IMG/VR virus record: IMGVR_UViG_3300042304_001206
Coordinates: 1 to 59,996 of that record
Length of the DNA: 59,996 nt
Strand: one strand, 5' to 3'
DNA from: a virus
Shown one piece after another: positions 1,308-57,379 of the stretch. A program made the translations under genes and the position numbers. The notes below the pieces were generated by a model. It made no database searches. It was not told where the DNA came from and saw nothing but the letters and a program-made list of their open reading frames with translations. Positions within the stretch are counted from its first letter, which is position 1, and every line of letters starts with the position of its first letter.

Positions 1308-1315
1308 TATAAATA
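1308..1315 (-). promoter_or_regulatory. TATTTATA element, candidate late promoter
   Basis: Exact TATTTATA on the coding strand, 7 nt before the ATG at 1300 and downstream of a terminator. It is one of a set of such sites in front of virion genes. Confidence 0.55.
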
Positions 1316-1335
1316 GTTTAATTTCTTAATAAGAT

Positions 1336-1369
1336 AAAAAAAAAGGAAGATTTTTTAGGTCTTCCTTTT
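1336..1369 (-). terminator. Rho-independent terminator after collagen-like fibre gene
   Basis: A 10-bp perfect stem (AAAAGGAAGA with TCTTCCTTTT, arms 1360-1369 and 1341-1350, 9-nt loop) is followed on the minus strand by further T residues. It lies 19 nt after the stop of the 1203-residue fibre gene. Confidence 0.85.
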
Positions 1370-1387
1370 AATTTTTGTTACGTTTTT

Positions 1388-4300
1388 TTAGAACGTTCCA
1401 CCGTCTATTGTATTTGTGAATGTTAAACTACCATCTGAGGTTTTATAACCTAATATTGTAGTCACCACATCACTTGTATCTGTTGTCGGTACTTCACCAA
1501 ATATGTCGTTAGCATTTTTAAATGTAACATTTGATCTTGTACTACTTATCAAGTCATTACCGTTAGTTGATACTTTTAATGTACCTGCTACCACTGTGTT
1601 TCCTGATACCGATTCAACTGTGAATTTATCTGTATTGAATTGTAATGTTGTTCCACTATATTTCAATAAACTATCACCGATTGTGTTGTCAGAAGATGCA
1701 ATTGGGAATGTTCCACTTGTTAAACTTGTTTCACTTCCTAATGTTCCTGCGGTCGTTCCAATTACTTTACTTGAATTGTTAGAACCATCAACTGTTAACC
1801 AATCATTATTTACTGAGTCCCATAGTAAAGAACCTGATTGTCCTATTGAACCTGAATCATATCCACTAATACCTGCGTATCTTTGGAATGGTGAGTAAGC
1901 ATTTACTAAGATAATATTATCACCTAATTCAACTGTATTTGATTGAATACTTACGTTTGTTGATGAACCTAATACTTGTAAGTTTCCTGATACAAATAAA
2001 TTACCACCTAACATTGTTGCTGAACCTGAACTTACTGTTAATGAACCTGTAATTGATGTGTTAGCATTTACTTGTAGACCTGCTGCAGTTACCGATGCTG
2101 TTACCGCACCACTTGCAATCTTATCTAATTGTAATCCTGTTACACCACTTGCTGGTATATTATAAAGTCCCGCACCATCACCAATGAACGAACCTGTGAA
2201 TACAGAAGAAGTTACTGGTTGGTTAAATTTAACACTTAAGTTTGTTTCCCAAACTGATCCTGTTAAAGCGAATATACTGTCTCCTGAAGATCCTGATGTT
2301 CCTGATGAACCTGAAGAACCTGAAGAACCTGCTGATCCTGATGAACCACTAGATCCTGAAGTTCCTGCTGTTCCTGAACTACCTGATGTACCGCTTGAAC
2401 CACTTGTACCTGATGAACCATTACTACCTGAAGAACCTGATGTTCCCGCTGTTCCTGAAGAACCGCTAGATCCTGAAGTTCCTGATGAACCTGAAGAACC
2501 ACTAGTTCCTGATGAACCATTACTACCTGATGTTCCGTCAGATCCTGAAGATCCTGAAGTTCCTGATGAACCACTAGATCCTGAAGATCCTGAAGAACCA
2601 CTAGATCCTGAAGTTCCTGCAGTTCCTGATGTACCACTAGATCCTGATGAACCTGAAGTTCCTGAAGATCCTGATGAACCTGAAGAACCGCTAGAACCAC
2701 TTGTTCCTGCTGTTCCTGAAGAACCGCTAGATCCTGAAGTTCCTGATGAACCTGAAGATCCACTTGTTCCTGATGAACCATTACTACCTGATGTTCCGTC
2801 AGATCCTGAAGATCCTGAAGTTCCTGATGAACCTGCTGTACCTGAAGAACCGCTAGATCCTGATGAACCATTACTACCTGATGTTCCTGATGTACCTGAA
2901 GAACCATTACTACCACTTGTTCCTGATGTTCCGTCTGATCCTGAAGAACCTGATGTACCTGAAGTACCTGCTGTTCCTGAAGAACCTGATGTACCTGCTG
3001 AACCTGATGAACCTGATGAACCTGATGTACCCGCTGATCCTGAAGATCCTGAAGTTCCACCTGATCCACTTGTTCCTGATGAACCATTACCACCAATAGT
3101 AGCAATTACTGTACCTGTTTGTGCTTCATTAAAGTATACTTTTAAGTTATTACTATCAATAACTTCAATTTCTGTTGGTATAACAACTTTATCTGAACCG
3201 TCAAACACATTAATTGCAGGATATTTGTATCCTAAATTGTGGTTGAATGACCATGTTGTCGATGCTGAACCAATTACTAACGTTTTAGTTTGACCTGAAA
3301 CAATAACCGCGTTTTCAGCGTATATTGCGTAAGACGATGTTCCTGCGAATTGAGAATTAGAACCTGAAACATATGTGTTGAACGCTGTTTCATCTAATTT
3401 ACCCGTTCCAACTGTTACACCGTTCAACATTAATGAACCTGTGATGTTAACGGAACCTGTGAATGAATGTACATCGTCTTGTGTGTCACCAAATTTGGTT
3501 GAACCTGATTGATAAAGAACTGAAGATGATACTAATGTAATGTTTAATTCTTTCGCTGTAAGTGTACCATCAATAAATGTATCTCCATTTACTCTGAATG
3601 TTCCGTCAGATGCGATAGATGCACTTACTGAACCACTTACAATTTTATTTAATTCTAATCCTGTTACACCCGAAGCTGGAATGTTATATAAACCTGCACC
3701 GTTTCCAACAAATGAAGACGATACCACTGAAGCGGTTACCGCTCCAACAACTCTTACTGGATTTGTTGTTGACCATATTGAACCTGTTAATGCAAATAAA
3801 CTATCTCCTGAAGTACCATCACTACCTGAAGAACCACTTGTTCCTGAAGAACCACTAGATCCTGAAGTACCTGCCGTTCCTGATGAACCACTAGATCCTG
3901 AAGTTCCTGAAGATCCTGAAGTACCACTAGATCCGTTAGATCCTGATGAACCACTTGTTCCTGCAGTTCCCGATGTACCCGCCGATCCTGATGATCCTGA
4001 TGAACCATCACTACCACTAGATCCTGATGTACCTGCTGTTCCTGAAGATCCTGAAGATCCTGAAGTACCACTAGATCCGTTAGAACCTGAAGAACCACTT
4101 GTTCCTGCTGTTCCTGATGAACCACTAGATCCTGATGTTCCTGATGAACCACTAGATCCTGATGTTCCTGTTGATCCTGAAGAACCATCACTACCACTAG
4201 ATCCTGATGTACCTGCTGTTCCTGAAGATCCTGAAGATCCTGAAGTACCACTAGATCCGTTAGACCCACTAGAACCTGATGAACCATCACTACCACTTGT

Positions 4301-4999
4301 TCCTGATGTACCTGCAGTTCCTGAAGATCCTGAAGATCCTGAAGTTCCTGATGAACCGTTAGACCCACTAGAACCTGATGAACCTGAAGTTCCCGCAGTT
4401 CCTGAAGAACCACTAGATCCTGATGTACCCGCAGATCCTGATGAACCTGAAGAACCACTAGATCCTGAAGTACCAGCTGTTCCTGATGAACCACTAGATC
4501 CTGATGAACCTGAAGTTCCTGAACTATTTGATGTATATTCAGAACCGTTTATAAATAAACTTCCTGTAACATTAATTGAACCACTAACGTTAACTTGACT
4601 ACCAAACGTTGCTGTTGTACCTGTTAAATTAGTAATTGTAACACCACTGATAGTATTACCTTCAATGTTACCAACCAAATTCATGGTTGTATTACCAGCA
4701 ATACCGGTGTCTAATATATATAATTTCTTTTCGGCAGTAGCGTAGAATGGTACACCATCTAAACCTGAACCATATGTACCAGCAGCAATTGATGGTGCGT
4801 TTGCTCCTTGATAAATCTTGGATGCTGCCCTAAATGCTCCTGCAACTCCTTCATCCGATAATTCCGGAGAACCAATAAATATAAAAGGTCCTTGTAAATT
4901 ACCAATCGAACCGGTTGCGATGATTAATTCACCGTTTCTTGCCGTTGTGTTTTTGAGGGTTGATATCGAACCCCTCCTGTGTTTAATGATTTGTGCCAT
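1388..4999 (-). CDS. collagen-like tail fibre protein (1203 aa)
   Basis: Residues 1-~165 form a non-repetitive N-terminal head (starts MAQIIKHRRGSISTLKN) likely to attach to the virion. Two long blocks of Gly-x-y triplets follow, mostly GSS, GTS, GSD, GSN and GTA. They are separated by a globular block with LYNIPASGVTGLELNK and TKFGDTQDDVHSF segments, and the protein ends in a ~240-residue globular tail. Gly-x-y repeats of this kind form collagen-like trimeric rods in phage fibres. A ~90-residue block (SYAIYAENAVIV...IATIGGNG) is almost identical to one in the neighbouring 1742-residue fibre. A TATTTATA site lies 21 nt upstream. Fibre assignment is from repeats and context; the receptor is unknown. 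Confidence 0.85.
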   Translation of the reverse strand: MAQIIKHRRGSISTLKNTTARNGELIIATGSIGNLQGPFIFIGSPELSDEGVAGAFRAASKIYQGANAPSIAAGTYGSGLDGVPFYATAEKKLYILDTGIAGNTTMNLVGNIEGNTISGVTITNLTGTTATFGSQVNVSGSINVTGSLFINGSEYTSNSSGTSGSSGSSGSSGTAGTSGSSGSSGSSGSAGTSGSSGSSGTAGTSGSSGSSGSNGSSGTSGSSGSSGTAGTSGTSGSDGSSGSSGSNGSSGTSGSSGSSGTAGTSGSSGSDGSSGSTGTSGSSGSSGTSGSSGSSGTAGTSGSSGSNGSSGTSGSSGSSGTAGTSGSSGSDGSSGSSGSAGTSGTAGTSGSSGSNGSSGTSGSSGTSGSSGSSGTAGTSGSSGSSGTSGSSGSDGTSGDSLFALTGSIWSTTNPVRVVGAVTASVVSSSFVGNGAGLYNIPASGVTGLELNKIVSGSVSASIASDGTFRVNGDTFIDGTLTAKELNITLVSSSVLYQSGSTKFGDTQDDVHSFTGSVNITGSLMLNGVTVGTGKLDETAFNTYVSGSNSQFAGTSSYAIYAENAVIVSGQTKTLVIGSASTTWSFNHNLGYKYPAINVFDGSDKVVIPTEIEVIDSNNLKVYFNEAQTGTVIATIGGNGSSGTSGSGGTSGSSGSAGTSGSSGSSGSAGTSGSSGTAGTSGTSGSSGSDGTSGTSGSNGSSGTSGTSGSNGSSGSSGSSGTAGSSGTSGSSGSDGTSGSNGSSGTSGSSGSSGTSGSSGSSGTAGTSGSSGSSGSSGSSGTSGSSGSSGTSGTAGTSGSSGSSGSSGSSGSSGTSGSSGSDGTSGSNGSSGTSGSSGSSGTSGSSGSSGTAGTSGSSGSNGSSGTSGSSGTSGSSGTAGTSGSSGSSGSAGSSGSSGSSGTSGSSGDSIFALTGSVWETNLSVKFNQPVTSSVFTGSFIGDGAGLYNIPASGVTGLQLDKIASGAVTASVTAAGLQVNANTSITGSLTVSSGSATMLGGNLFVSGNLQVLGSSTNVSIQSNTVELGDNIILVNAYSPFQRYAGISGYDSGSIGQSGSLLWDSVNNDWLTVDGSNNSSKVIGTTAGTLGSETSLTSGTFPIASSDNTIGDSLLKYSGTTLQFNTDKFTVESVSGNTVVAGTLKVSTNGNDLISSTRSNVTFKNANDIFGEVPTTDTSDVVTTILGYKTSDGSLTFTNTIDGGTF

Positions 5000-5020
5000 C
5001 TACTTTGTGTTTGTTTAGTT

Positions 5021-5028
5021 TATAAATA
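5021..5028 (-). promoter_or_regulatory. TATTTATA element, candidate late promoter
   Basis: Exact TATTTATA on the coding strand, 21 nt before the ATG at 4999, in the 98-nt gap between two fibre genes. No convincing terminator hairpin was seen in that gap. Confidence 0.55.
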
Positions 5029-5097
5029 CTTAATTTTTACCAATCTTCGAGTTATTTCTATCTATTTGTAATATATTTTTATTATTAATTTGTTTTT

Positions 5098-8000
5098 TTA
5101 AAAACCACCTAAATCCAATACAATATTATTTTGTTCTTGTGTTATTACGTTTTGTCCTCCCATTGATATTGAAGCAGAGATAATTTGTGATTGAATTTGA
5201 GCTTGCATCATTGCCATTGCACCTGATATAATAAGTGATTCTCTTAATGGATCAGTTGATGTTAATGTTGTTGTTCCACGTACTGTTAAATCTCCATCAA
5301 TAATAACTGAACCTGTTGTACGTAATGAACCTGTAAAATCATGTTTATCATCTAATGTATCACCGAACTTTGTTGACCCTGATTGATAAAGTATTGAAGA
5401 TGTTACATAATCAATACGTAATTCTTTTGCTGTGATTGTACCATCAATTACTACATCTGTATTAACTTTTAATTTTCCATCAGCTAATGATGCACTTACA
5501 CTACCACTAACAATTCTATCTAAGTTAAGTCCTGTAATTCCTGATGATGGGATATTATATAATCCTGCACCATCACCTGTAAATGAACCGCTAATTGTTC
5601 CGTTATTTACAGTTAAATCACCTGTGTTAATTTCTAAATCACTATTTGTTAAATCAACAAGACCATTGAAAACATGTAAATTAGATCCACTTGTTAAATA
5701 CAATGATGAACTGTCGGTCATTATTGTATTACTATCGGTAATTCCTAATTGAGATGTAATATTTAACGATCCCGTTATTTCTACATCATTTGTTGTCGTC
5801 CATGTGCCAGGTGTTGTTTCGGCAAATAAACTATCTCCGCTAGATCCTGATGTTCCACTTGTTCCCGATGTTCCACTTGTTCCTGATGTACCTGCAGTTC
5901 CTGATGAACCTGAAGTTCCGCTTGTTCCAGCCGAACCCGATGAACCACTAGTACCTGATGAACCATTACCACCGACAGTAGCAATTACTGTACCTGTTTG
6001 AGCCTCGTTAAAATATACTTTTAAGTTATTACTATCAATAACTTCAATCTCTGTTGGGATTACTACTTTATCACTTGCATCAAATACGTTAATTGCAGGA
6101 TATTTGTATCCTAAATTGTGATTGAATGACCATGTTGTTGAAGCTGAGGATACATTTAATGTTTTAGTTTGACCTGAAACAATAACTGCGTTTTCTGCAT
6201 ATATCGCGTATGATGATGTTCCTGCAAATTGTGATGTATTTGAACCTGTATATGTGTTAAACGCCGATTCATCTAATTTACCGGTACCAATTGCTTGTCC
6301 GTTTAATGTTATTGAACCTGTTATATTAACTGAACCCGTAAAATTATGTGTATCGTCTAAAGTATCTCCGAATTTGGTGGAACCTGATGTATATAAAACT
6401 GAAGAGGTTACATAATCAATGTGTAATTCTTTCGCGGTCAAAATACCATCAACATATAATGATCCTGTAATTGATGTATTGGTGTTAATATGTAAACCAT
6501 CTAAATCAATAGATGCTGTATTACTACCACTACTAATTAAATTTAATTGTAAACCTGTAACTCCTGATGCTGGTATGTTAATTAAATTACTACCATCACC
6601 ATAAATGTAAGCTCCACTTATTATTCCACCGTCAACATATATGTTTGAACCACTCGTCATGTATAATGACGAACTATCTGTCATTATAATATTAGCATCA
6701 ACAACTCCTAATTGGGAAGTTATTGATAATGATCCAGTAATTTCTACGTCATTTGTTGTTGCCCAAACGCTACCCGTTAGAGCAAATAAACTATCCCCTG
6801 AAGTACCATCCGAACCTGAAGAACCCGATGTACCTGAAGTACCACTTGTACCTGAAGTTCCGTCTGAACCACTAGTTCCTGAAGTACCACTTGTACCATC
6901 AGAACCACTAGATCCTGAAGTACCACTTGTACCATCGCTACCTGAAGAACCTGATGTACCCGCACTACCACTTGTACCTGACGTACCATCACTACCTGAA
7001 GTACCCGCAGTTCCTGAAGAACCATCTGAACCCGATGTACCCGCAGTTCCTGAAGAACCACTAGTTCCTGATGAACCGTCTGAACCTGAAGTACCACTAG
7101 ATCCGTTTGATCCTGATGAACCACTAGTTCCTGATGAACCATCTGTACCGTCAACACCTGATATACCCGAAGTACCATCACTACCTGAAGAACCGCTAGT
7201 ACCACTAGATCCGTTCGAACCTGAAGAACCACTAGTTCCTGATGTACCATCAGAACCACTAGATCCTGAAGTACCTGAAGATCCTGATGTACCATCACTA
7301 CCACTAGAACCTGAAGATCCATCTGAACCACTTGAACCTGAAGATCCTGAAGAACCTGAAGAACCATCCGATCCACTAGATCCTGAAGAACCTGAAGATC
7401 CTGATGTACCATCACTACCACTAGATCCTGATGAACCTGATGTACCATCACTACCACTTGTTCCGGATGTCATTGCTGAGAAAGAAACTCCGTCTATTGA
7501 AAGACTACCACTTACAATATTAACTGATCCTGATATAAAAACCGAACCCGTAAACTCGTGTGTGTCGTCCGATGTATTACCAAATTTATTTGAACCTGAT
7601 GTGTAAAGAACTGATGACGTTACATAATTAATATTTAATTGTTTTGCGGTTAATATACCATCAATATACGTGTCTCCATTAACCCTGAATGTTCCATCGG
7701 ATTGAATAGACGCACTTACCGAACCACTTACTATTTGATTTAGTGCTAAATTTGTTACACCACTTGCCGGTATATTATATAATCCCGCACCATCACCAAA
7801 GAAAGCTGCAGTAACAAAACCACCATTTTCAACAATGATATTACTACCACTTGTTAATATAAGTGATGAACTGTCAGTTAAAAATAAACTTGAATCAAAT
7901 ACACCTGAACCGTTGGATACTATTAATGAACCCGTAATAGATGTGTTGGTGTTAATATTAAATCCATCTAAACTAACCGAAGCCGTATTACTACCACTTG

Positions 8001-10326: not shown

Positions 10327-10328
10327 TT

Positions 10329-12029
10329 TTATATATAAATATTATTTGTAGGTACTTGCCATGTTATGTATTGTACTACCGCACCCGTACCATATATACC
10401 AGTAAATCCTGTTCCTAATGCCTTAAATGTCATTAAGGTTTTTGCTGCGTTTTGTACACAGACTGATTGGCCAGTTGATGTTCCTCCCATATTTCTACTT
10501 AAGAAATCTCCACCAATAAGTTGTGAATGTGTCATAAAATTTATTCCCCATAGTCCTAATGGATGTGTTACACTTATTTCAGTTGCACTAACTCTTGTAA
10601 ATGTCCAACCACCAGTACCTGATGTTATAGTATTACCTAGTGGGTCGGTTGCCGCAGCAAAAGGACTCGCATCTAAACTACCTGCCGAATATGTTAATTT
10701 TAAAACATACACACCTCCACCACCCGCCGCCGATGTACCTGAAGAACCTGATGTACCCGATGTTCCCGTTGCACCACTTGTACCTGATGAACCCGCAGCA
10801 CCTGAAGTACCACTAGAACCATCAACACCTGATGTTCCCGATGATCCAGCAATACCTGAAGATCCACTAGATCCTGAAGTTCCCGAAGAACCTGTCGTTC
10901 CTGAACTACCATCTGAACCACTTGTTCCTGAGGTACCCGATGAAAAACCTAAAGGTGATGTACCCGATGAACCTGAAGTTCCCGCACTACCTGATGTACC
11001 GTGTGAACCAGTTGCACCCGTTGTACCCGATGTTCCACTTGAACCTGACGTTCCTGAAGTACCACTAGTTCCTGAAGTTCCGTCTGAACCTGATGTTCCA
11101 CCACTTCCCGCAATACCTGATGTTCCACTTGATCCTGAAGAACCTGATGTACCACTTGTACCATTTGTACCTCCACCACCGCCACCAACTATAGTCACTC
11201 TAACATTACCCGCACCAATATCTGTAACGGTTGCACCACTAAATATGATTTTATCTACTCCATTAATTAATGTTGATCCGTCACCGACTTTAAGTGTTGA
11301 TGTTCCTCCTCCTTCTCCTCCACTTATTGAACTATATAAATTAATGGACCAACTATTGTGATCACTACCTCCTACATGTTCTAAAATTCTTATTATTAAT
11401 TGTGTACCTGAATAACTTACAACACGTCCTATTAAATAATTTAATATATTACTTGCAGCAATTACAAGTTGACCCGTGGTATAAGATAAATTACTATCAA
11501 CTGTGAAAGTAAGGTCTTCCCCATCGTGTTCGTCAATATCTGTAATGTATGTTGTTGATGATGTTTGATAAACATTTCCTGAAGTGCCTGATGTACCTGA
11601 AGTACCTCTTGCTCCCGATGTACCCGAAGAACCACTTGTACCGTGATTACCCGCAATACCGCTTGTTCCTGAAGAACCACTAGATCCGTTTGATCCTGAC
11701 GTTCCACTTATACCTGAAGATCCTGATGTTCCCGAAGTTCCTGAAGAACCTGTTAAACCTGAAGAACCACTTGTACCAGATGTACCACTAGTACCTCTTG
11801 CACCTGAAGATCCTGAAGATCCTGAAGATCCTGAAGTACCTGACAAACCTGAAGAACCTGATGTACCTGAAGATCCTGTGGTTAAATCAGTTAAACTTGT
11901 TCCTGAAACATATAAATTATCTGCGTAGACCGCATTTAATGGAGTTGTGGATGAACCGAGATCAATTGTGGTACCTGGTGTGACGTTTTCCGTCTCAATC
12001 TGTGTCCAATTTATTCTTTGTAGTGCCAT
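10329..12029 (-). CDS. collagen-like tail fibre protein (566 aa)
   Basis: N-terminal segment MALQRINWTQIETENVTPG... (about 50 residues), then three Gly-x-y stretches (GSSGTSG types) separated by two globular parts (around NVYQTSSTTYITDIDEHDG and GGGTSTLKVGDGSTLING). A C-terminal domain of about 110 residues contains HPLGLWGINFMTHSQLIGG and ends TWQVPTNNIYI. That C-terminal domain is unlike those of the other two fibres, so it may carry a different binding specificity. This is the first of three consecutive collagen-like genes and the most promoter-proximal. A TATTTATG site lies 19 nt upstream and a terminator precedes it, so the fibre cluster forms its own transcription unit. Confidence 0.85.
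   Translation of the reverse strand: MALQRINWTQIETENVTPGTTIDLGSSTTPLNAVYADNLYVSGTSLTDLTTGSSGTSGSSGLSGTSGSSGSSGSSGARGTSGTSGTSGSSGLTGSSGTSGTSGSSGISGTSGSNGSSGSSGTSGIAGNHGTSGSSGTSGARGTSGTSGTSGNVYQTSSTTYITDIDEHDGEDLTFTVDSNLSYTTGQLVIAASNILNYLIGRVVSYSGTQLIIRILEHVGGSDHNSWSINLYSSISGGEGGGTSTLKVGDGSTLINGVDKIIFSGATVTDIGAGNVRVTIVGGGGGGTNGTSGTSGSSGSSGTSGIAGSGGTSGSDGTSGTSGTSGTSGSSGTSGTTGATGSHGTSGSAGTSGSSGTSPLGFSSGTSGTSGSDGSSGTTGSSGTSGSSGSSGIAGSSGTSGVDGSSGTSGAAGSSGTSGATGTSGTSGSSGTSAAGGGGVYVLKLTYSAGSLDASPFAAATDPLGNTITSGTGGWTFTRVSATEISVTHPLGLWGINFMTHSQLIGGDFLSRNMGGTSTGQSVCVQNAAKTLMTFKALGTGFTGIYGTGAVVQYITWQVPTNNIYI
10334..10341 (-). promoter_or_regulatory. TATTTATA element, candidate late promoter
   Basis: Exact TATTTATA on the coding strand, 7 nt before the ATG at 10326. 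It lies inside the last codons of the preceding fibre gene. Confidence 0.5.
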
Positions 12030-12048: not shown

Positions 12049-12056
12049 CATAAATA
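12049..12056 (-). promoter_or_regulatory. TATTTATG variant of the late promoter-like element
   Basis: TATTTATG on the coding strand, 19 nt before the ATG at 12029 and directly after a strong terminator. Confidence 0.45.
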
Positions 12057-13791: not shown

Positions 13792-14127
13792 TTAATTAAG
13801 ACAAATTGAACCGAAATTGGAGAATTCAATAAACACCCCATTATCGTAATCAAAGTCTTCTTTTTTAAATTGTATTCCGTTTTTAAATTTTGTTTTATTA
13901 ATGACACTAATCGCCGCAATTGTTTTTCTTAATAATTCAAATTGTTCTCTGTCCAATGTTGCTGTTCCATTTTTTTCATAGTTCTTCTGTGCAATCTCAG
14001 TCATATGTTTGTAAAACAATTCTTCATCTGAATTACTTAAAAAAAATTCTTTTGCTTCTAAATTGGTTTCAAAGTAATTTTTAACCGATTGAAGATATAT
14101 TAAAACTTCAGGCGATAATTTATCCAT
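13792..14127 (-). CDS. hypothetical protein (111 aa)
   Basis: Not recognised. A soluble, mostly helical-looking protein (e.g. EVLIYLQSVKNYFETN, DREQFELLRKTIAAIS) without transmembrane segments. Its ATG overlaps the stop of the NusG-like gene (TAATG), so it is translationally coupled to it. The AAA+ gene follows 8 nt later. It may work with either neighbour. Confidence 0.7.
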   Translation of the reverse strand: MDKLSPEVLIYLQSVKNYFETNLEAKEFFLSNSDEELFYKHMTEIAQKNYEKNGTATLDREQFELLRKTIAAISVINKTKFKNGIQFKKEDFDYDNGVFIEFSNFGSICLN

Positions 14128-19428: not shown

Positions 19429-20274
19429 CTATATAAATATATCTTTAATCTCATTTAATACGATATTTTCCACTTGTTTACGTGGTAAACCGTATGTTTT
19501 TGAGATTTCGTTTATTATTTGTTGTATTTCTTTGTCTTCATTAACGTATTCAATTGCTCCCGTATTACCTTGATTACAATAAGGAAACTTCTTACATTTC
19601 TCTTTTACCTTAACAAAAACACTATCTGGTCCTCCCCATTTAGGGAAATTCTTATCCTTGACCGCTCTACCTTTATAGATACTGTCAGGTCCGTCAATCT
19701 TCAATGGGTCTTTACGACCACCAGAGGTTGATTTACCGAACGCAGGGACATCAAATGCACCTGAAGAACTTGAATCTGTTACTTCCCCTAATTCTTGTTC
19801 GTTTGGTTCAAAATTAGGTATTTTAGATATTTTTCTTTTAATCACATCTCCATCTCCACCAAACGCCGATCCTTCAAAAGAACCTGACGAATCTGCACCT
19901 GTTTCTTTTACTTCTTCTTTCTTTTTTGTCATATCCACGACCCACAATTTGGGGTTAATACCTTTACCAATTAAACCAGCAAGTCTTGTATTACCACCTA
20001 AAAGGTCATAATCGTTCTCACCAAATTTAACTACCATTGGTATTTCAACTTCACCCTCTTTAAAATGCTTTTCAAATCTTTTTTTCTTTTCATCCTCAAG
20101 TGTATCATAATCTAAATCCACATTATTCAATACTTCTTTAATTGAATTAAAATTAGAAATTTCAAAATCTTTAGATGCTTTCTCTAACCACTTGTCCTTA
20201 CCCATCTTTTCAAATTCACGGTAACGAAGAGCCTCACTCCACTCATGTTCAAAGTTTGGTTTAGAATACTTCAT
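19429..20274 (-). CDS. ParB/Srx-fold domain protein (281 aa)
   Basis: Residues ~70-115 carry a ParB/sulfiredoxin-like core: VEIPMVVKFGENDYDLL, then GGNTRLAGLIGKGI and LWVVD. The GGNTRL motif is the conserved nucleotide-binding box of this fold. The middle is Ser/Gly-rich linker (GADSSGSFEGSAFGGDGD, VTDSSSSGAFDVPAFG) and the C-terminus is helical (EISKTYGLPRKQVENIVLNEI). ParB-like domains in phages act as DNA-binding proteins, nucleases or regulators; which applies is not visible. Its stop and start are packed against neighbours (1-nt overlap upstream). Confidence 0.6.
   Translation of the reverse strand: MKYSKPNFEHEWSEALRYREFEKMGKDKWLEKASKDFEISNFNSIKEVLNNVDLDYDTLEDEKKKRFEKHFKEGEVEIPMVVKFGENDYDLLGGNTRLAGLIGKGINPKLWVVDMTKKKEEVKETGADSSGSFEGSAFGGDGDVIKRKISKIPNFEPNEQELGEVTDSSSSGAFDVPAFGKSTSGGRKDPLKIDGPDSIYKGRAVKDKNFPKWGGPDSVFVKVKEKCKKFPYCNQGNTGAIEYVNEDKEIQQIINEISKTYGLPRKQVENIVLNEIKDIFI
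19432..19439 (-). promoter_or_regulatory. TATTTATA element, candidate late promoter
   Basis: Exact TATTTATA on the coding strand, 5 nt before the ATG at 19426, inside the end of the preceding gene. Confidence 0.5.
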
Positions 20275-23330: not shown

Positions 23331-24140
23331 TTATAAATAGTTTAATAGACCAAAACTCTCGTTTCTAAGCTTTTTAATGGCCTTATCACGTAATTGTCTA
23401 ATACGTTCTTTTGTACAACCGTATTCCTCCCCCAAGTCCTCTAAGTTTGATTCAACACCTGTTAGACCATAATATCTCTCAATAATAACTCTTTCTCTTT
23501 CATCTAAGACACTTAACATTGCTGAAACTTTTTTCTTTATTTCTTCAGGTGAGTTCATAATAGCATCAGGTCTTTCCGCTTCTTTGTTTGGAATAATATC
23601 AATTAGTTGATCTCCGTCTTCGTTTATTTCTCTATATAGACCAACACAGTATGGTAGACCACTTGACACCGGTTCTTCACTATTATTAATAAAGAAATTA
23701 TCTTCTTGACTTAATTCTTCTTTTTTAGATTTCTGTGATTCTTGAACCAAATTTGACGGAAGACGTATAGTTCTTGCGTTTTCATTTAATGATGCCATTA
23801 TTGATTGTCTAACCCACCACACAGCGTATGATATAAATTTTAATCCACTTGTTGGATCAAATCTTTCCGCCGCCTTCATTAAACCAATATTACCTTCGGA
23901 TATGATGTCCATAATATCCATCCCTTGATTTTGAAACATTTTTGCAACTGATATAACAAATCTTAAATTACCTACAACCAACTCATCGTATAAAAATTTC
24001 TTTTCATGTTTAGTAATTGTCTTATCATTAAGTCTTTCAAAAATAACCTCTTGTCTTTCATGTGATATAACAGGTATTCTACGAATGTCCTTTATGTACT
24101 GTTGTATTTCCTCGGTGTTGTTTAAGATGGATTTTTTCAT
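23331..24140 (-). CDS. sigma-70 family RNA polymerase sigma factor
   Basis: A 269-residue sigma factor. It has region 1.2 (IQQYIKDIRRIPVISHERQ at 12-30), region 2 (NLRFVISVAKMFQNQGMDIMDIISEGNIGLMKAAERFD at 58-95), the -10-recognition helix (FISYAVWWVRQSI at 102-114, close to the primary-sigma form), a region 3 remnant and the region 4 helix-turn-helix (LEDLGEEYGCTKERIRQL around 233-250). It is shorter than a host RpoD, lacking a long region 1.1, as in Bacteroidetes primary sigma. It probably directs host core polymerase to phage promoters, the obvious candidates being the TATTTATA elements listed here. Confidence 0.92.
   Translation of the reverse strand: MKKSILNNTEEIQQYIKDIRRIPVISHERQEVIFERLNDKTITKHEKKFLYDELVVGNLRFVISVAKMFQNQGMDIMDIISEGNIGLMKAAERFDPTSGLKFISYAVWWVRQSIMASLNENARTIRLPSNLVQESQKSKKEELSQEDNFFINNSEEPVSSGLPYCVGLYREINEDGDQLIDIIPNKEAERPDAIMNSPEEIKKKVSAMLSVLDERERVIIERYYGLTGVESNLEDLGEEYGCTKERIRQLRDKAIKKLRNESFGLLNYL
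23332..23339 (-). promoter_or_regulatory. TATTTATA element, candidate late promoter
   Basis: Exact TATTTATA on the coding strand, 13 nt before the ATG at 23318 and overlapping the sigma factor stop region. Confidence 0.5.
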
Positions 24141-25999: not shown

Positions 26000-26007
26000 T
26001 ATAAATA
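26000..26007 (-). promoter_or_regulatory. TATTTATA element, candidate late promoter
   Basis: Exact TATTTATA on the coding strand, 14 nt before the ATG at 25985 and immediately downstream of a hairpin that follows ClpP. Confidence 0.55.
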
Positions 26008-34095: not shown

Positions 34096-34096
34096 T

Positions 34097-35065: not shown

Positions 35066-35101
35066 AAAAAAAAATGGGAGCCGGACACCACGCCGACTCC
35101 C
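35066..35101 (-). terminator. strong terminator between RuvC-like and primase genes
   Basis: GC-rich stem GGGAG-x-CGG / CCG-x-CTCCC (35076-35101) followed on the minus strand by AT9. It lies 28 nt before the primase ATG, so it either ends the RuvC-side or ncRNA transcript or acts as an attenuator for primase. Confidence 0.85.
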
Positions 35102-35135
35102 TCCAACCAAACTTGTATTTCTACAAGTCCCGTCC
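35066..35135 (-). ncRNA. candidate structured RNA with GAAA-tetraloop hairpin and intrinsic terminator
   Basis: On the minus strand, an exact TATTTATA element is followed 3 nt later by GGACGGG. Next comes a perfect 7-bp hairpin closed by a GAAA tetraloop (ACTTGTA-GAAA-TACAAGT, 35111-35128), a 9-nt linker and the GC-rich terminator stem with a T9 tail. The whole unit is about 70 nt and far more GC-rich than its surroundings. The 5' GGAC could pair with GTCC in the terminator loop. It could be a phage small RNA or a terminator-type leader for primase. Confidence 0.55.
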
Positions 35136-35138
35136 TAA

Positions 35139-35146
35139 TATAAATA
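35139..35146 (-). promoter_or_regulatory. TATTTATA element upstream of structured RNA
   Basis: Exact TATTTATA on the minus strand, ending 3 nt before the GGACGGG 5' end of the candidate RNA. There is no start codon close by, so this copy argues for a promoter rather than a translation signal. Confidence 0.55.
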
Positions 35147-37957: not shown

Positions 37958-37965
37958 TATAAATA
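37958..37965 (-). promoter_or_regulatory. TATTTATA element, candidate late promoter
   Basis: Exact TATTTATA on the coding strand, only 4 nt before the ATG at 37953; used as a -10 it would give a leaderless or near-leaderless mRNA. Confidence 0.55.
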
Positions 37966-39303: not shown

Positions 39304-39311
39304 TATAAATA
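39304..39311 (-). promoter_or_regulatory. TATTTATA element, candidate late promoter
   Basis: Exact TATTTATA on the coding strand, 5 nt before the ATG at 39298, just downstream of a terminator. Confidence 0.55.
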
Positions 39312-39955: not shown

Positions 39956-39963
39956 TATAAATA
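39956..39963 (-). promoter_or_regulatory. TATTTATA element, candidate late promoter
   Basis: Exact TATTTATA on the coding strand, 16 nt before the ATG at 39939, in the short gap after the 1787-residue gene. Confidence 0.55.
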
Positions 39964-39986
39964 TCTGTTTATTTTGTTTTATTTTA

Positions 39987-46261: not shown

Positions 46262-46271
46262 ATTCTTTTAT

Positions 46272-46279
46272 TATAAATA
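46272..46279 (-). promoter_or_regulatory. TATTTATA element, candidate late promoter
   Basis: Exact TATTTATA on the coding strand, 10 nt before the ATG at 46261. Confidence 0.55.
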
Positions 46280-46285
46280 TAAATC

Positions 46286-47713: not shown

Positions 47714-47717
47714 TTTA

Positions 47718-49523
47718 TTATATTACATCAAATGTTATACTTGCATATTTTCCATTATCATATGAACTTGTTATTGTGAAATTATAAACTCCTTCACCCA
47801 ATGTTACATATTGTGTACTGTCAGGTGCTGTTAAAGCTGGCGATGTGGCATTTAAAAATATATCACCAGCAACAAAACCACTATTCGAACCACCACTTGT
47901 TGTTCCACCAAAAACATTTAAAGTAACTTTTACACTATAACTAGCATATACTGTTAACGTTCCTACCGCATAACCATTATTAGAATATCCTGCATTTGTT
48001 GATCCTGTCACACTATATGGTAAAGGAGTTGGTGTATTTGTTGGTGGTAAAGGAGTTGGTGTTGCGGTTATTGGTCCTGCTGTTGGGGTTTCTGTTGGTG
48101 GTAAAGGAGTTGGTGTATTTGTTGGTGGTAAAGGAGTTGGGGTTGGGGTTGGTGCACATGATATTTCACCATAAAACACGGATGAAATTGATGCAATTAC
48201 TCCTGATAATGAATTATTTTGAATACAATCATTAATTACTTGTGGTCCAATACCAAATGTCTCGATAACTTCGGTACCCTCACAATTAAAATATCTAACA
48301 GTTCCACCAAAATCAACATCAAAACTTACTGACGTTACACAAGGACTTTCTGTAGGTGTTGGGGTTATTGTAGGAATTACTGTGGCCACAGGTGTAGGTG
48401 TTGAAGTTGGGAAAGGTGTTGACGTTGGTCTAGGTGTCGCCGTAACTCCACCGATAGGTGTTGGAGTTGGGGTTGATACTGGTAATAATACTCCACCTCC
48501 TTTTTCGTAGAATGTTATACTATCAGTCGTTGTATAACCTGTGCCTATTCTACCTAACTTTGTTGTTCCCGTATATCTATATATTTGATACGTTCTTTCA
48601 TAATGATCAAAATCAATTTGATAATACATATCTTTTTCTTCTGTTATATTATAACTTGTTGTTTGACCTGAATTTATAAAATCTAATATCTCACCTCTAT
48701 CCGCATTGAAAAATTTTGCCGTCATGAAAAATGTATTCATTCCATGATAAAAATTTCTATTATAGGTTATTTGATTTGGTATTGTAAATGTTTGACCTGT
48801 CCAACCAATTAACGTTGTTCCTGTTGTTGGTATATTAACTTGTGTTATTTCATTATTTTCATTTGTAAATAATATAGTTTGTATTGTAGTTCCAGTTCCA
48901 AAAACATATTGATCTAATGTTGTTGTTCCGCTTAAATTTGTGTCGGTTAAAACACTCTCATTATCAAACCAAAACAAATACATGTTTTCTTTGTTTCGAT
49001 AATTTGAACCCGTAAAAACAGGTACATATATGTTATACCCATAGTTACTACCTGTATGAAAATATTTTTCACCTAAGGGTAATGCTAAATTTTTAGAATT
49101 TATTAATCTTCTATTTTGTCTTGTCGGTGGCTCACATGTTAAAACATAATTTGTTATACTACCAGGTGTTTTATAAAACTCTAACCTAAAAAAACTTTCA
49201 ATTGACTGTTTTGTCATCAACTGATTTTCTTGTGTTGATATACCTACAGGATTATAATCTAAAACATAATTTGGTGTATCTCCACTTGAAAAATAAAATT
49301 GAAACCATATATCTGTTTGTGACATTGTAATACCACTGGTTGTTTTATCATATGGTTTATGAATGTATCTAACTGTTTCATAATTTTTAGATGGATTAAT
49401 AATATCTTTTAAAATCTCATCTTCAAAATCGGCAAGATTATCCTGCCAACCTAAATCTGTTCTAAAATTTTGTTCACTATTAACTACAATATTTAAATTG
49501 TTACTATTTTTTAAAATTTCCAT
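47718..49523 (-). CDS. virion protein with Pro/Thr linker and shared Cys domain (601 aa)
   Basis: The N-terminal ~345 residues are globular (MEILKNSNNLNIVVNSEQ...). A Pro/Thr linker leads to the Cys domain CVTSVSFDVDFGGTVRYFNC...TFGIGPQVINDC, closely related to the domain at about 38540-38750 in the 439-residue protein. Another PT linker ([13 protein letters not shown]) follows, and a C-terminal ~95-residue domain (NAGYSNNGYAVGTLTVYASY...) resembles a small lectin-like sandwich. Likely attached to the baseplate through its N-terminus. It overlaps the upstream gene's stop by 1 nt. Confidence 0.7.
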   Translation of the reverse strand: MEILKNSNNLNIVVNSEQNFRTDLGWQDNLADFEDEILKDIINPSKNYETVRYIHKPYDKTTSGITMSQTDIWFQFYFSSGDTPNYVLDYNPVGISTQENQLMTKQSIESFFRLEFYKTPGSITNYVLTCEPPTRQNRRLINSKNLALPLGEKYFHTGSNYGYNIYVPVFTGSNYRNKENMYLFWFDNESVLTDTNLSGTTTLDQYVFGTGTTIQTILFTNENNEITQVNIPTTGTTLIGWTGQTFTIPNQITYNRNFYHGMNTFFMTAKFFNADRGEILDFINSGQTTSYNITEEKDMYYQIDFDHYERTYQIYRYTGTTKLGRIGTGYTTTDSITFYEKGGGVLLPVSTPTPTPIGGVTATPRPTSTPFPTSTPTPVATVIPTITPTPTESPCVTSVSFDVDFGGTVRYFNCEGTEVIETFGIGPQVINDCIQNNSLSGVIASISSVFYGEISCAPTPTPTPLPPTNTPTPLPPTETPTAGPITATPTPLPPTNTPTPLPYSVTGSTNAGYSNNGYAVGTLTVYASYSVKVTLNVFGGTTSGGSNSGFVAGDIFLNATSPALTAPDSTQYVTLGEGVYNFTITSSYDNGKYASITFDVI

Positions 49524-51410: not shown

Positions 51411-54400
51411 TTAAGGAACTTGGTTTTCACATTCAAGTAAATTAAATGCCCCTTTAGGACCAAATAAATCTACAAACTTATCCATTCCCGTTTTACCCGC
51501 CATCAGTCCAAAATAAAAATGAAATGGTGTCGAAAGGATTTGTCTATTTCCACTGTAATAATCAATTGTTGGTCTTATGATATAATCAATTGAACTACTC
51601 CAAAATTGTGAGTGCCAACCATTTGTTATTGTAATACCTTGATATGTTGAGTTACCAGATACTGGACCAACTCTAGTATATAATGTTCCACCTGTTGGTG
51701 CCTTAGTATATTGTCCCGACCCTCCAGATAATAATTGATTTGTAAACCCTGTTACGTGTAAATAAGTAAAACCAGGATATTCTAAACCATAGTCCTCGCT
51801 ACTATCAAAAGGATTTTCATCAAGATCAACAATATCAAAATCAATTTGATCTGTACCATCTCCATTTATTGTTAAACCACTAAAAGTATAAGTCATTGGT
51901 AATAACAAATATTTGTCTGACGAATCATTTGGTGCTCCATTAATATTATAAGCGTATGTCATTCCTTGTAAAGGTTGTAATTCAACAGAACTATAATCCC
52001 AAGATTGACTATCTTTATATTCATTGTATGGACCAAATCCCGTACCTCCCTTATCCCACAAATAAAACGGTACTTTTTGTGAAGATCCATAAGTATCTGA
52101 ATCCCAACCCAATCTTCCCGGCTCATTTAAACATGCTCTAATTCTTTCACCATCTTCTTTGAGATCGAAAGTAACCGGTAATGGTCCATATTGTGAGTTT
52201 CCGTTTTTAAAAACTTCAGGATAAATCTCAGGATCTAACTTATTGAATTGATATGCAAGATATTTTGAATTTTCTAAATCAAATCCTTCTATACCGGCTT
52301 CATTATTAATAGATAATAATTGTAGAATATCTCCATCTAAAATTTGTCTTAGACCTATTTTATTTTGAAATCCTTTGTTGGTAAAAAACATATCTAAATT
52401 TCCGAGAGCTCCTCCGACATCCATTCTATAATTAATTGCTAATCCAAGTAAATCTCCAATGTCTTGATATGAGGTAGGTCCAATACTTCTTGATACAGAA
52501 CAATTTGGATCTAATCTTTTATCAATACATATTTCTTTAATAAATTCATCTCTTGGTCCTAAATCTACAAATGTCGTAGGGTGATTTAATTCATTAGGTA
52601 TAAAATTACCATTTTTAAATTTAGCTGATCTATAATAAAATTTATTAATTCCGTTACCTACGAATCTTACTAATGTCCTACAATATCTTATTAATTTTTC
52701 ATTATTACTACTTATAGCTCTAGTAACTCCTTTAGCTTTAAATTGTAAAAAATATAGTGATCCAGATAACCAGTTATCAATAAAACCATAATTAACGACT
52801 CCACCACAAAACATTTTACCCACTCGTTTTCTTCTATAATATTCCCTCAATATACCTGATAATCTTGCTGGAGTTTGAGTACCTGGAATGATATAAAAAA
52901 CTCCGTTTGCAAACTCACTTCTTGCACTTGGGGTTGCATATCCTCCATTATAATTCCAATCTTCACAACTGAAATCTCTAATACCTGATACGAATGGATT
53001 ACCTGATTGATATGGATAATATGATTCAGGTACATTTTTTTCTCCACCATAAATTGCTGTAGAGATTAATATATTACCTGCACTTAATTCTGTTTTTAAT
53101 TGTGCATTAGTTTGAACATATTTTCTTCCTATATTTTCTGGTAAAAGTGTAGCATTATAACCGCAACCCTTAAATTCACTCGTATTACTATTATTCGTAA
53201 CAAAATACCCTGTCACCAAATTATCATCATATAATGTATCGTAATAACCACAACTACTATTTCCACTATAAGATATACCAGAACCATTTCCACCGCCAAT
53301 AGTGGAACTTTCATCTGAACATTCGACGCATTCAGGATAATTAATTAAACTTAATTTTGTTTGATTATTAATAACAAATTCTGTAAGTCTTGACCTTAAA
53401 CCTCTATTCCTTTTTGCCGAAATAGTAATTAATGCTTCAACTATGGTATTTAAAATAAAAATTGTAAAATTTAAAAATTGTAATGTTAAAAATTTAATAA
53501 CAAAATCCAACACTAATAAAAAATCGGCAATTAATAATGGAAATGTATAATTCTTTATACCAAAATTTGATGGTGGTGTTAGTTTATCTCCACAATCTTC
53601 TTCTTCACTTGGAATTGTGTCATTTATATTAGCGAAACCGACTTGTCCAATTAAATTTGTACCGTTATATCTCTGTTGAAATGACGATACTGTATAGACT
53701 TTATTATATGTGAATCTGTAAAAATAATCTTGTGGATAATATTCGCCTCCATCATTATTTAAAATTAATGGTAAAGCCTCAGATGGATAATCACTTAGAC
53801 TTGTTGAGAACGCGTATGATTTATCATTTGGAACATCATAAGAAAATCCACCTAACGTTTCGGTTAATTGATACTCTCTTATGTTTGGTAACAAATAATC
53901 AGCATTAAATCTAACTCTCGTTAAATCATTATCATTCATGTTAATTCTAAATCTATAACATCCTGATGTTGGAATACCTCTATTAATATCATTAGTTATT
54001 TCATTCTCACCAAATTCATTTGTAATTACATAGTCCATGTTCATGATAACCGGTAATACAAATCCACCGTCATCGGGTATGTCCTCATTTATATTAACAA
54101 CTTCTAAACGTGGGTAATTGTTATCATCTTTTTGAGGTGTAAATCTAATAGCCTCAATCTTACCTGACTTAGCAACTAAATCACATTTTCTTCCCATTTT
54201 TCTTCTTGGGGTACAAGCTTTATTAATTGCATTTTTACTACTGTCAGTAAAAATACCACCAATTACATATGCTTTAGGTTGAATATTAACTCCGTTTTCT
54301 GTTAAGTCAAAATCTGTTCTTGTAATACCAATCTCACATAAAGATTCATTTCCCCAAAAAGGATAAACTTGGATGATTTTATTTATACTAACAATTTGTG

Positions 54401-55028
54401 GTAAAGAGTCTAAATCTTCAGATTCTTTAAATGAGAATTTGTTTTTAAATCCATCGACATTTATTCCTTGTCTAATAAAATCATATGGTCTTAAAGAGAA
54501 ACAACCGACATCAGATAAGTCAGCATCCATATGTATTGTTTGTGCACCAATAGGTACACCCCAAATCATAAAATCACCCGCACTATTTGTTTTAACTGTG
54601 TATTTGTAATATTTCTCATATACCTCTAAAACTTCTTCTCTCTCTAAAATATTAGTTTGATCGGGAAACGTCCCCGTTTTTGCATGTCCACTATGTTGTT
54701 GTCTTGATGGTAATAAGTTATAACGATAATTATTTTCGTCTCTGTCAGTAACTTCCTTATATGGGTAAAGAGTAGAAATTACAGGATCCTTTTCATCTTC
54801 TATTGTTAATGGTACAAATATTGATACTCTTACATTACCAAGTCCAAAACCATTGTTTGCAGTAACTCTACCACAGACAACTCCGTAATCAGAGCACATC
54901 GAAGTGTAAATCTCTTTTTGACTGAATTTTAAAGATAAAATCTCTAAAACGTCAAAATCTTGTTTTAACTCAACTGTAATTTTTTGGTCAACCCCAATAT
55001 TGGTCGAAATTCTATGCTTTTGTATCAT
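51411..55028 (-). CDS. large baseplate/tail protein with carboxypeptidase-regulatory-like domain and hydrophobic segment (1205 aa)
   Basis: Residues ~40-185 contain GVVCGRVTANNGFGLGNVRVSIFVPL and later AGDFMIWGVPIGAQTIHMDAD, the pattern of a carboxypeptidase regulatory-like (transthyretin-type) beta domain. A long hydrophobic stretch around residues 495-540 (LLIADFLLVLDFVIKFLTLQ onwards) is unusual for a baseplate protein and could insert into a membrane. Many Cys occur, e.g. PECVECSDE. It follows the gp6-like gene, so it may be a large wedge or tail-tip protein. A TATTTATT site lies 6 nt upstream. Confidence 0.65.
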   Translation of the reverse strand: MIQKHRISTNIGVDQKITVELKQDFDVLEILSLKFSQKEIYTSMCSDYGVVCGRVTANNGFGLGNVRVSIFVPLTIEDEKDPVISTLYPYKEVTDRDENNYRYNLLPSRQQHSGHAKTGTFPDQTNILEREEVLEVYEKYYKYTVKTNSAGDFMIWGVPIGAQTIHMDADLSDVGCFSLRPYDFIRQGINVDGFKNKFSFKESEDLDSLPQIVSINKIIQVYPFWGNESLCEIGITRTDFDLTENGVNIQPKAYVIGGIFTDSSKNAINKACTPRRKMGRKCDLVAKSGKIEAIRFTPQKDDNNYPRLEVVNINEDIPDDGGFVLPVIMNMDYVITNEFGENEITNDINRGIPTSGCYRFRINMNDNDLTRVRFNADYLLPNIREYQLTETLGGFSYDVPNDKSYAFSTSLSDYPSEALPLILNNDGGEYYPQDYFYRFTYNKVYTVSSFQQRYNGTNLIGQVGFANINDTIPSEEEDCGDKLTPPSNFGIKNYTFPLLIADFLLVLDFVIKFLTLQFLNFTIFILNTIVEALITISAKRNRGLRSRLTEFVINNQTKLSLINYPECVECSDESSTIGGGNGSGISYSGNSSCGYYDTLYDDNLVTGYFVTNNSNTSEFKGCGYNATLLPENIGRKYVQTNAQLKTELSAGNILISTAIYGGEKNVPESYYPYQSGNPFVSGIRDFSCEDWNYNGGYATPSARSEFANGVFYIIPGTQTPARLSGILREYYRRKRVGKMFCGGVVNYGFIDNWLSGSLYFLQFKAKGVTRAISSNNEKLIRYCRTLVRFVGNGINKFYYRSAKFKNGNFIPNELNHPTTFVDLGPRDEFIKEICIDKRLDPNCSVSRSIGPTSYQDIGDLLGLAINYRMDVGGALGNLDMFFTNKGFQNKIGLRQILDGDILQLLSINNEAGIEGFDLENSKYLAYQFNKLDPEIYPEVFKNGNSQYGPLPVTFDLKEDGERIRACLNEPGRLGWDSDTYGSSQKVPFYLWDKGGTGFGPYNEYKDSQSWDYSSVELQPLQGMTYAYNINGAPNDSSDKYLLLPMTYTFSGLTINGDGTDQIDFDIVDLDENPFDSSEDYGLEYPGFTYLHVTGFTNQLLSGGSGQYTKAPTGGTLYTRVGPVSGNSTYQGITITNGWHSQFWSSSIDYIIRPTIDYYSGNRQILSTPFHFYFGLMAGKTGMDKFVDLFGPKGAFNLLECENQVP

Positions 55029-55034: not shown

Positions 55035-55042
55035 AATAAATA
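55035..55042 (-). promoter_or_regulatory. TATTTATT variant of the late promoter-like element
   Basis: TATTTATT on the coding strand, 6 nt before the ATG at 55028, in the 55-nt gap after the gp6-like gene. Confidence 0.45.
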
Positions 55043-55083
55043 GAAACTATGTGATTTTCTATATATTATAACGAAAAAACATT

Positions 55084-56913: not shown

Positions 56914-56914
56914 C

Positions 56915-57367
56915 TTATATGTTTAAAATTATAAAGTCGGAAGTTGAAAATGACCCGTTATTAACTGTATATTCTATTTTAACTACCGCCGTATATGGTT
57001 TTGTCGATTCATCAGAAACCCTAAATAATCTTTCATCTTCATCTTGTGCGATACTTCTTTGTCGATTTGGATCGTCTTCCGCTGATGTTATAGATATATT
57101 TGTAATATCTAAGTTTGGTATGAATTTTTTAACTCCTTCTCTGATTTCTTCTTCAATTAAATTATATGTAATTGCGTCATTTTGATCGAAAATGTATTGA
57201 TATATTCTTGTTCCAAAATCAGGTAAGTAATATCTACTACCTTTTCTTGTTAAAATAAGGTGTATAAGATTGGCTCTAATCTCCTTTTCAGGGATTTCAG
57301 TCATATTAAGATAATCTCCTTTGGGGCTATCTCTAAATGGATAATCAATACCGTACGTTACTGCCAT
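56915..57367 (-). CDS. baseplate wedge protein, T4 gp25-like
   Basis: A 150-residue gp25/lysozyme-like wedge protein: YGIDYPFRDSPKGDYLNM near the N-terminus, EIRANLIHLILTRKGSRYYLPDFGTRI at ~25-51 (conserved R-G-x-R-x-x-x-P-x-x-G), and helix LIEEEIREGVKKFIP. It caps the sheath initiation ring. I chose ATG 57367 (MAVTYGI) over an in-frame TTG at 57373. A TATTTATT element lies 4 nt upstream, so this probably begins the baseplate transcript. Confidence 0.9.
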   Translation of the reverse strand: MAVTYGIDYPFRDSPKGDYLNMTEIPEKEIRANLIHLILTRKGSRYYLPDFGTRIYQYIFDQNDAITYNLIEEEIREGVKKFIPNLDITNISITSAEDDPNRQRSIAQDEDERLFRVSDESTKPYTAVVKIEYTVNNGSFSTSDFIILNI

Positions 57368-57371
57368 ATTC

Positions 57372-57379
57372 AATAAATA
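57372..57379 (-). promoter_or_regulatory. TATTTATT variant of the late promoter-like element
   Basis: TATTTATT on the coding strand, 4 nt before the gp25-like ATG at 57367. Confidence 0.45.

Follow-up and report, generated by a model that had tools for sequence, protein, structure and literature searches.

A candidate T4-type late promoter with a changed core, TATTTATA, in T4-related phages

We describe an 8-bp, AT-rich element, TATTTATA, that recurs on the coding strand shortly before genes in a 59,996-base virus fragment (IMG/VR record IMGVR_UViG_3300042304_001206, positions 1 to 59,996; hereafter, the window). On the comparisons set out below, we put at roughly four in five the probability that this element is the late promoter of a T4-related lineage, opened by the host core RNA polymerase together with a gp55-like sigma factor and giving mRNAs that are in part leaderless. 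The element would occupy about −13 to −6 relative to the transcription start, as does the T4 late element TATAAATA, with T in place of A at −10 and −9; host core polymerase carrying the phage gp55-like sigma would open it; transcription would begin ~4–7 nt past TATTTAT; and an ATG 4–8 nt away would then head a leaderless or near-leaderless mRNA, with the remaining genes receiving leaders of ~5 nt or more. A late promoter had been proposed in an earlier note made from the window alone; that proposal is supported by where the element sits and on which strand, by the class of genes it precedes, by its conservation in orthologs, and by its spacing.

The window matches, gene for gene and on the same strand, positions of about 57,924–117,979 of a 217-kb record (IMGVR_UViG_3300042895_001344; G001) that contains the window's own sequence, so the two are not independent. 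Genes were called with a longest-ATG open reading frame (ORF) script rather than a trained gene finder; 50 of the 51 genes called in the window are on the minus strand. They include gp6-type and gp25-type baseplate wedge proteins, a NusG-like protein, ClpP, and a sigma-70-like factor with regions 2 and 4; beyond this stretch, G001 also encodes the portal, large terminase, head protease, tail tube, Ad2 adaptor, DnaB, UvsX, DNA polymerase, and a UvsW-type helicase (type assigned by eye). From its genes, the source of the window is taken for a large T4-related myovirus.

The element is concentrated just upstream of genes

Within 50 nt upstream of the 51 window genes, TATTTATA is found before 10, whereas 60 shuffles gave 0.9 on average and never more than 3, in agreement with the earlier estimate that less than one copy would stand there by chance; it also outranks every other 8-mer in the 60 nt preceding the 50 minus-strand genes. 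Counted over the full window, it is not enriched (16 exact copies, 14.95 by dinucleotide shuffle). Of these copies, 14 lie on the minus (coding) strand and two on the plus strand (15679 and 54380); 10 of the 14 precede an ATG by 4–21 nt, one (35139) precedes a small RNA, and three are inside genes (4550, 12757, and 21084). All copies listed in the earlier note are present, as are the variants TATTTATG (12049) and TATTTATT (55035 and 57372); the three copies inside genes and the two on the plus strand had been omitted. The sites are as follows, "kept" giving the number of ortholog upstreams that retain the element.

1308..1315, minus strand: TATTTATA, 7 nt before the ATG of 818–1300 (Pro/Thr-rich protein); no usable ortholog upstreams
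5021..5028, minus strand: TATTTATA, 21 nt before 1388–4999 (fibre-like, by eye); kept 2/2
10334..10341, minus strand: TATTTATA, 7 nt before 5098–10326 (fibre-like, by eye), within the 3′ end of 10329–12029; no usable orthologs
12049..12056, minus strand: variant TATTTATG, 19 nt before 10329–12029, past a terminator-like hairpin; TATTTAT kept 2/2
19432..19439, minus strand: TATTTATA, 5 nt before 18179–19426 (no PHROG match); kept 14/14
23332..23339, minus strand: TATTTATA, 13 nt before 23025–23318 (membrane protein, by eye), in the 3′ end of the sigma-70-like gene; kept 4/4
23331..24140, minus strand: sigma-70-like factor with regions 2 and 4, the motif reader proposed in the earlier note and a rival candidate here
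26000..26007, minus strand: TATTTATA, 14 nt before 25650–25985, with a terminator-like hairpin upstream seen by eye and unscored by the script; kept 11/11
35139..35146, minus strand: TATTTATA, heading the small RNA at 35066..35136
37958..37965, minus strand: TATTTATA, 4 nt before 35839–37953 (tail/baseplate-like, by eye; no PHROG match); kept 3/4
39304..39311, minus strand: TATTTATA, 5 nt before 37979–39298 (Pro/Thr-rich), after a terminator-like hairpin; no usable orthologs
39956..39963, minus strand: TATTTATA, 16 nt before 39382–39939; kept 2/2
46272..46279, minus strand: TATTTATA, 10 nt before 45350–46261 (no PHROG match); kept 21/25
55035..55042, minus strand: variant TATTTATT, 6 nt before 51411–55028 (no PHROG match); TATTTAT kept 39/40
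57372..57379, minus strand: variant TATTTATT, with 5 nt separating TATTTAT from the ATG (57367) of 56915–57367 (gp25-like baseplate wedge); TATTTAT kept 29/29

The same enrichment over shuffled controls is present in four long records: TATTTAT followed by A or T occurs in the 50 nt upstream of 36/209 genes in G001 (shuffle 8.1), 74/400 in G003 (16.4), 58/354 in G004 (10.8), and 38/175 in G009 (4.4), and TATTTAT is the top-ranked 7-mer in the 80 nt upstream in all four; in each, TATAAATA is near the shuffle mean. Across 68 relatives, non-redundant both with the window and among themselves (929 gene starts), the counts are 82 for TATTTATA (20.9 expected), 104 for TATTTATT (21.5), and 61 for CTATTTAT (4.4), with only 10 for TATAAATA (20.9). 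Pooling 1138 starts gives 142 copies of TATTTATA (22.2 expected) and 23 of TATAAATA (25.6); when each base of TATTTATA is changed singly, T at the last position (−6) is found 53 times (18.3 expected) and every other change at most 17 times. The consensus is TATTTAT preceded by A, C, or G and followed by A or, sometimes, T. The motif is also enriched in the cultured Flavobacterium phage immuto (23/220 genes; 2.7 expected), in the Microcystis phage Mel-JY01 (13/232 within 60 nt; 2.5 expected), and in a second set of immuto-type contigs (972 starts; TATTTATA 100 against 14.6, TATAAATA 26 against 20.7), in which 66 of 80 loci were kept as non-redundant, the loci being strongly ortholog-rich and not independent. 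An expectation-maximisation search with a 16-nt width gave blurred words in the AT-rich spacers and was replaced by the exact-word ranking and the single-substitution table.

Conservation, gene class, and upstream hairpins

For 13 motif genes, TATTTAT is found within 40 nt in 127 of 133 distinct ortholog upstreams, compared with 12 of 300 for 23 control genes. The count leaves out orthologs with identity >97%, matches starting away from the N-terminus, and those lacking an ATG, and it takes identical upstreams as one; three of the 13 genes then have no usable ortholog. Because presence of the motif in the window was the criterion for choosing the motif genes, this comparison measures conservation, not discovery; as judged from these upstream sequences, the motif is under selection. 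Eight of the 12 control cases belong to one gene, the NusG-like gene (window 14127–14651, minus strand), which has TATTTAT upstream in 8 of 12 relatives and lacks it in the window copy.

The genes that carry the motif are enriched in virion functions. In G001, the motif is within 60 nt of 7 of 10 virion-labelled genes (gp25-like wedge, tail tube, sheath, Ad2, protease, portal, and terminase) and of 0 of 18 others (p = 1e-4; several labels, i.e., sheath, gp46, and ribonucleotide reductase, come from inspection by eye and have no database match); with 32 nt the counts are 5/10 and 0/18, and with 150 nt 7/10 and 2/18. Two of the three virion genes without the motif adjoin the upstream gene and may be read through. 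In immuto, labelled from its GenBank annotation, the motif is within 60 nt of 9 of 21 late genes, including terminase, portal gp20, sheath, tail completion, hub, and tape measure, and of 2 of 46 others (p = 2.5e-4).

The motif could also be an RNA-processing site or a by-product of the composition of AT-rich spacers: the regions upstream of the motif genes are ~75% AT, and over the full window the number of copies is that expected by chance. Its reverse complement shows no enrichment, however, the motif is kept in orthologs while its flanks diverge, and terminator-like hairpins are commoner just upstream of the motif, in the same direction in 5/5 genomes (p 0.014–0.065); we give this explanation very little weight.

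Spacing to the start codon suggests leaderless and short-leader mRNAs

The distance from the end of TATTTAT to the ATG falls into two classes. Among 193 sites in G001, G003, G004, and G009, which have orthologs in common so that the sites are partly dependent, 2 are at 0–3 nt, 85 at 4–8 nt, 1 at 9–10 nt, and 105 at ≥11 nt. Other A2T5 words (20 control words, some overlapping the motif) are found at 0–3 nt in 128/856 cases and at 9–10 nt in 52/856; the binomial probabilities (1.6e-11 and 7.5e-5) treat ortholog sites as independent. The 155 sites of the ortholog-rich immuto-type loci are distributed similarly, with 4 at 0–3 nt, 70 at 4–6 nt, 2 at 7–9 nt, and 79 at ≥10 nt.

T4-type late promoters are active late, and their transcripts start 6 nt after the 8-mer. 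The T4 late element sits at −13 to −6 (PMC1524935); if that geometry is valid here, the first transcript base would be ~6 nt past TATTTAT, and an ATG at 4–6 nt would be the 5′ end of the mRNA. ATGs nearer than 4 nt would be lost, and leaders of 3–4 nt seem to be disfavoured in this analysis; as read from the sequences, the spacing classes fit a mixture of leaderless and short-leader mRNAs. The leaderless or near-leaderless mRNAs of the earlier note therefore stand, by geometry, for the 4–8 nt class only; the second class would have leaders of ~5 nt or more. In Flavobacterium johnsoniae, 87% of predicted leaders are >10 nt (PMC6847099), so short leaders would be a trait of the phage.

The motif might instead be an AU-rich element for translation initiation, as in hosts without Shine-Dalgarno sequences, and no promoter at all. 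It is near ATGs, translation in Bacteroidota needs A-rich leaders (PMC6847099), and the control A2T5 words, some of which overlap the motif, are mildly in excess at 3–6 nt; but the spacing ranges from 4 to >20 nt, one copy heads a small RNA that has no ORF, and replication genes are skipped. In Mel-JY01, a phage of a cyanobacterium, moreover, the ATG is 28–44 nt away at 15 of the 22 sites, with purine-rich, Shine-Dalgarno-like stretches between (by eye). A translation element is thus very improbable, and the Mel-JY01 sites would be explained if leader length follows the mode in which the host starts translation.

A small RNA headed by the element

The copy of TATTTATA at 35139, noticed earlier as preceding a structured RNA with no start codon nearby, does head a conserved, covarying RNA:

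35066..35136, minus strand: small RNA of ~70 nt, consisting of AGGACGGGAC, hairpin 1, GTTTGGTTGG, a terminator hairpin with a GGTGGTGT loop, and a T run

This RNA is conserved before the primase gene and contains no ORF; in 12 aligned sequences, 13 of 20 predicted pairs are changed on both sides in at least one sequence, and there is no Rfam match at the gathering threshold. Ahead of it, the relatives have TATTTAT (8), TATTTAA (2), or TACTTAT (2). In seven of the eight that keep the exact word, AGGACGGGAC begins 3–6 nt past TATTTAT; this distance provides a second estimate of the transcription start.

The element as a proposed variant of the T4 late signal

In the same orientation, TATTTATA and the T4 late promoter TATAAATA differ only at −10/−9 (AA to TT). 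As in T4, a lone AT-rich element at the −10 place, with no −35 element, precedes virion genes, and a gp55-like sigma is encoded by most of the genomes. No −35 partner is present in the 193 aligned sites (≤0.15 bits at every position beyond the core-adjacent base), and the Bacteroidota −33 TTTG partner was sought there and not found; there are weak A/T preferences ~8 and 15 nt upstream of the core. T4 late promoters are likewise described as having no −35 element (PMC2988020). The T4 consensus itself is not the motif here: we abandoned the reading of the motif as the T4 signal on the opposite strand, coding-strand TATAAATA being near or below chance in the jumbo relatives, and the identity of TATTTATA with the reverse complement of the T4 signal is probably incidental. 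Because TATTTATA is TATAAATA with two central changes and the genomes mostly encode a gp55-like late sigma, we consider that, on sequence grounds, the T4 signal in a variant form is the best description of it. The earlier statement that it is "not simply the T4 signal" is therefore only partly borne out.

The setting differs from that in T4. In a T4 control (50 of 169 kb), the ATG is 14–28 nt past TATAAATA in 12 of 59 genes, and TATTTATA is found for 5; here, the ATG is often 4–8 nt after TATTTAT. Drift from the consensus has a precedent in the T4 relative Aeromonas phage Aeh1, with the late promoter CTAAATA (PMC1524935, PMC2988020); Aeh1 changes −13/−12, whereas here −10/−9 are changed and −12 and −8 are kept. 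The housekeeping promoter of Bacteroidota has a −7 element, TAnnTTTG, with the start 4–5 nt downstream (PMC6847099); it shares with TATTTATA a TTT core just before the start, but TATTTATA lacks the fixed TA two bases ahead of TTT and the final G and serves a different gene set. The late promoters of the giant phage AR9 (AACA-N6-TA/G) have leaders of 26–491 nt (PMC5312081); they too are a late class in a giant phage but have another sequence, are read by phage-encoded multisubunit RNA polymerases, and give longer leaders.

The host is inferred, as a modest argument, to belong to the Bacteroidota, because, among cultured phages, the gp55-like protein finds its best match in a Flavobacterium phage and the Bacteroidota −7 element, TAHHTTTG, is enriched upstream of some genes. 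Before genes without TATTTAT it is found in 34/324 cases in G003 (shuffle 11.8) and 48/294 in G004 (9.4); the enrichment is weaker in G001 (13/173; 5.5) and G009 (13/136; 4.8) and absent in immuto (6/182; 4.8), although the host of immuto is a Flavobacterium (sp. LMO8).

A gp55-like protein is the better candidate for the reader

G001 encodes a gp55-like sigma at 169460–170161, outside the window, and such a gene is found in seven of eight further long records. The first Protein Data Bank (PDB) match of the protein is T4 gp55 (7d7c; E 9e-4 and 5e-4); it matches the PHROG late sigma family (E 1e-4), with Sigma70_r2 below the cut-off. PHROG_234 matches four of five records (not Mel-JY01) and also 7 of 14 control genomes; the similarity is remote only. 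For the structural model of the protein, all 50 matches listed bear the titles of sigma factors or of sigma-containing polymerase complexes; the Z scores reach 8.2, which is middling for helical models according to the tool, and T4 gp55 is absent from these 50. Where the gp55-like gene ends, ahead of the adjacent gene, TATTTAT is present in 19/19 representatives (of 77 proteins extracted from 80 loci) and in 63/63 immuto-type loci with a usable gp55 end.

The sigma-70-like factor at 23331–24140 had been named as the obvious reader. It is present in 10 of the 10 long records looked at, although seven of these were found through that gene; they include G009, a 154-kb fragment with the motif in which no gp55-like gene was detected. 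However, immuto and Mel-JY01 use the motif and encode relatives of the gp55-like protein, and neither whole record has a Sigma70_r4 match at E ≤ 1 or a relative of the sigma-70-like protein of the window (best E 0.48 and 4.2); in these two phages the motif thus accompanies the gp55-like gene rather than the sigma-70-like one. Reading by a sigma with region 4 would also be expected to leave a −35 trace, and there is none in the 193 sites. We therefore do not retain that assignment: a late promoter read by the sigma-70-like factor is unlikely, that factor probably serves another promoter class, and the gp55-like protein is, from these comparisons, probably the better candidate.

According to the structure of the T4 complex (PMC7892883), gp55 receives the adenines at −12, −9, and −8 in pockets whose walls are formed by Y97, N13/H95, and T99. 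In an alignment of 11 gp55 proteins, Y97 is present in all; N13 and T99 are shared by the five proteins of T4, vibrio-, pseudomonas-, and cyanophage type and are replaced by E/Q and G/Q/S, respectively, in the six proteins of the new group. These pocket differences may be tied to the change at −10/−9; the gp55-like protein of the huge phage LR756508 carries the new-group residues, yet the motif is missing from its tested stretch, so the residue change is a hint and not proof.

T4 late transcription involves the gp45 clamp and gp33, whereas here no T4-type clamp and no gp33 match were detected and the sigma has ~50 extra C-terminal residues, which may replace gp33. That the C-terminal domain corresponds to sigma region 4 is only suggested by profile comparison (p ~0.1 for that part alone; 9e-4 global and 8e-3 local for the whole protein). 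Directly after the gp55-like gene, with TATTTAT between, G001 encodes a helical protein of 126 residues (170176–170556); it is possibly a gp33 counterpart or a tail gene, and as gp33 it has no support beyond place, size, and helices.

Several observations weigh against a late promoter read by a gp55-like sigma. The protein resembles T4 gp55 only weakly, its fold model is poor (pLDDT 61), and a first Foldseek search with the model gave no match at E ≤ 0.001. No gp55-like match was found in G002 (211 kb) or G010 (35 kb), to which G009 is to be added; in LR756508, which has a gp55-like gene, the motif is seen 0 times (0.5 expected) in the 150 of 484 kb examined; and in Mel-JY01 it is not enriched within 40 nt (4 against 2.2). 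The clamp families PF02916, PF09116, and PF02767 are matched in none of five motif-bearing records (T4 itself matches PF09116; a divergent clamp could escape), and the 126-residue neighbour has no gp33 match in the PDB or PHROGs. As to the genes served, several late genes have no motif copy of their own, and the two non-late genes of immuto with the motif are GroES and PhoH. Of 20 further motif genes in G001, 12 match no PHROG and 3 match only function-unknown families, so most motif genes appear late by place only (the others are four head/connector genes and one of a ribosomal protein S21-like host-takeover family). Finally, 4 of the 12 relatives with the small RNA have a variant element.

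Significance

In the literature searched, which excluded most subscription journals and all bioRxiv preprints, we found no report of TATTTATA as a phage late promoter. T4-type late transcription itself is known; new here is a candidate late promoter of that type with a changed core in a changed setting. It gives a handle, at the level of mechanism, on late gene expression in a common and almost uncultured phage group (two baseplate genes and the immuto-type gp55 have at least about 600 matching stretches). With two altered central bases in the signal and, perhaps linked to them, different residues in the sigma pockets, promoter specificity becomes testable, and the rule of 4–8 or ≥11 nt to the ATG could help to spot late genes in metagenomic contigs. 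Tentatively, and with the odds against it, one may picture a widespread T4-related lineage of Bacteroidota phages with a one-piece gp55-like sigma (the C-terminal domain replacing gp33), no T4-type clamp, and leaderless virion mRNAs from TATTTATA; such a lineage might be a natural example with which to address a question posed in PMC2988020, namely why fused late sigmas are not known.

Other observations

In immuto and the immuto-type contigs, a second upstream motif is found around TTTAGGTATCAATAAT (TTTAGGTA 68 against 3.4 in the immuto-type set and 16 against 0.5 in immuto); it is perhaps an early promoter or a leader element.

The TATTTATA copy at 21084–21091 (minus strand) lies inside the coding end of 21025–21627, 42 nt before 20517–21041. 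In the relatives, 13 copies form a spike at distance 42 that was not traced to this locus and perhaps reflects only protein conservation.

An inverted repeat, TAGAAA...TTTCTA (55035–55070, minus strand), overlaps the predicted promoter of 51411–55028 and is present in many of the relatives compared; it is a possible operator. In the regions 818–12029 and 37979–49523, tail-region proteins carry long Thr-Ser-Gly (TSGSSG) and Pro/Thr (TPTPLPAT) repeats.

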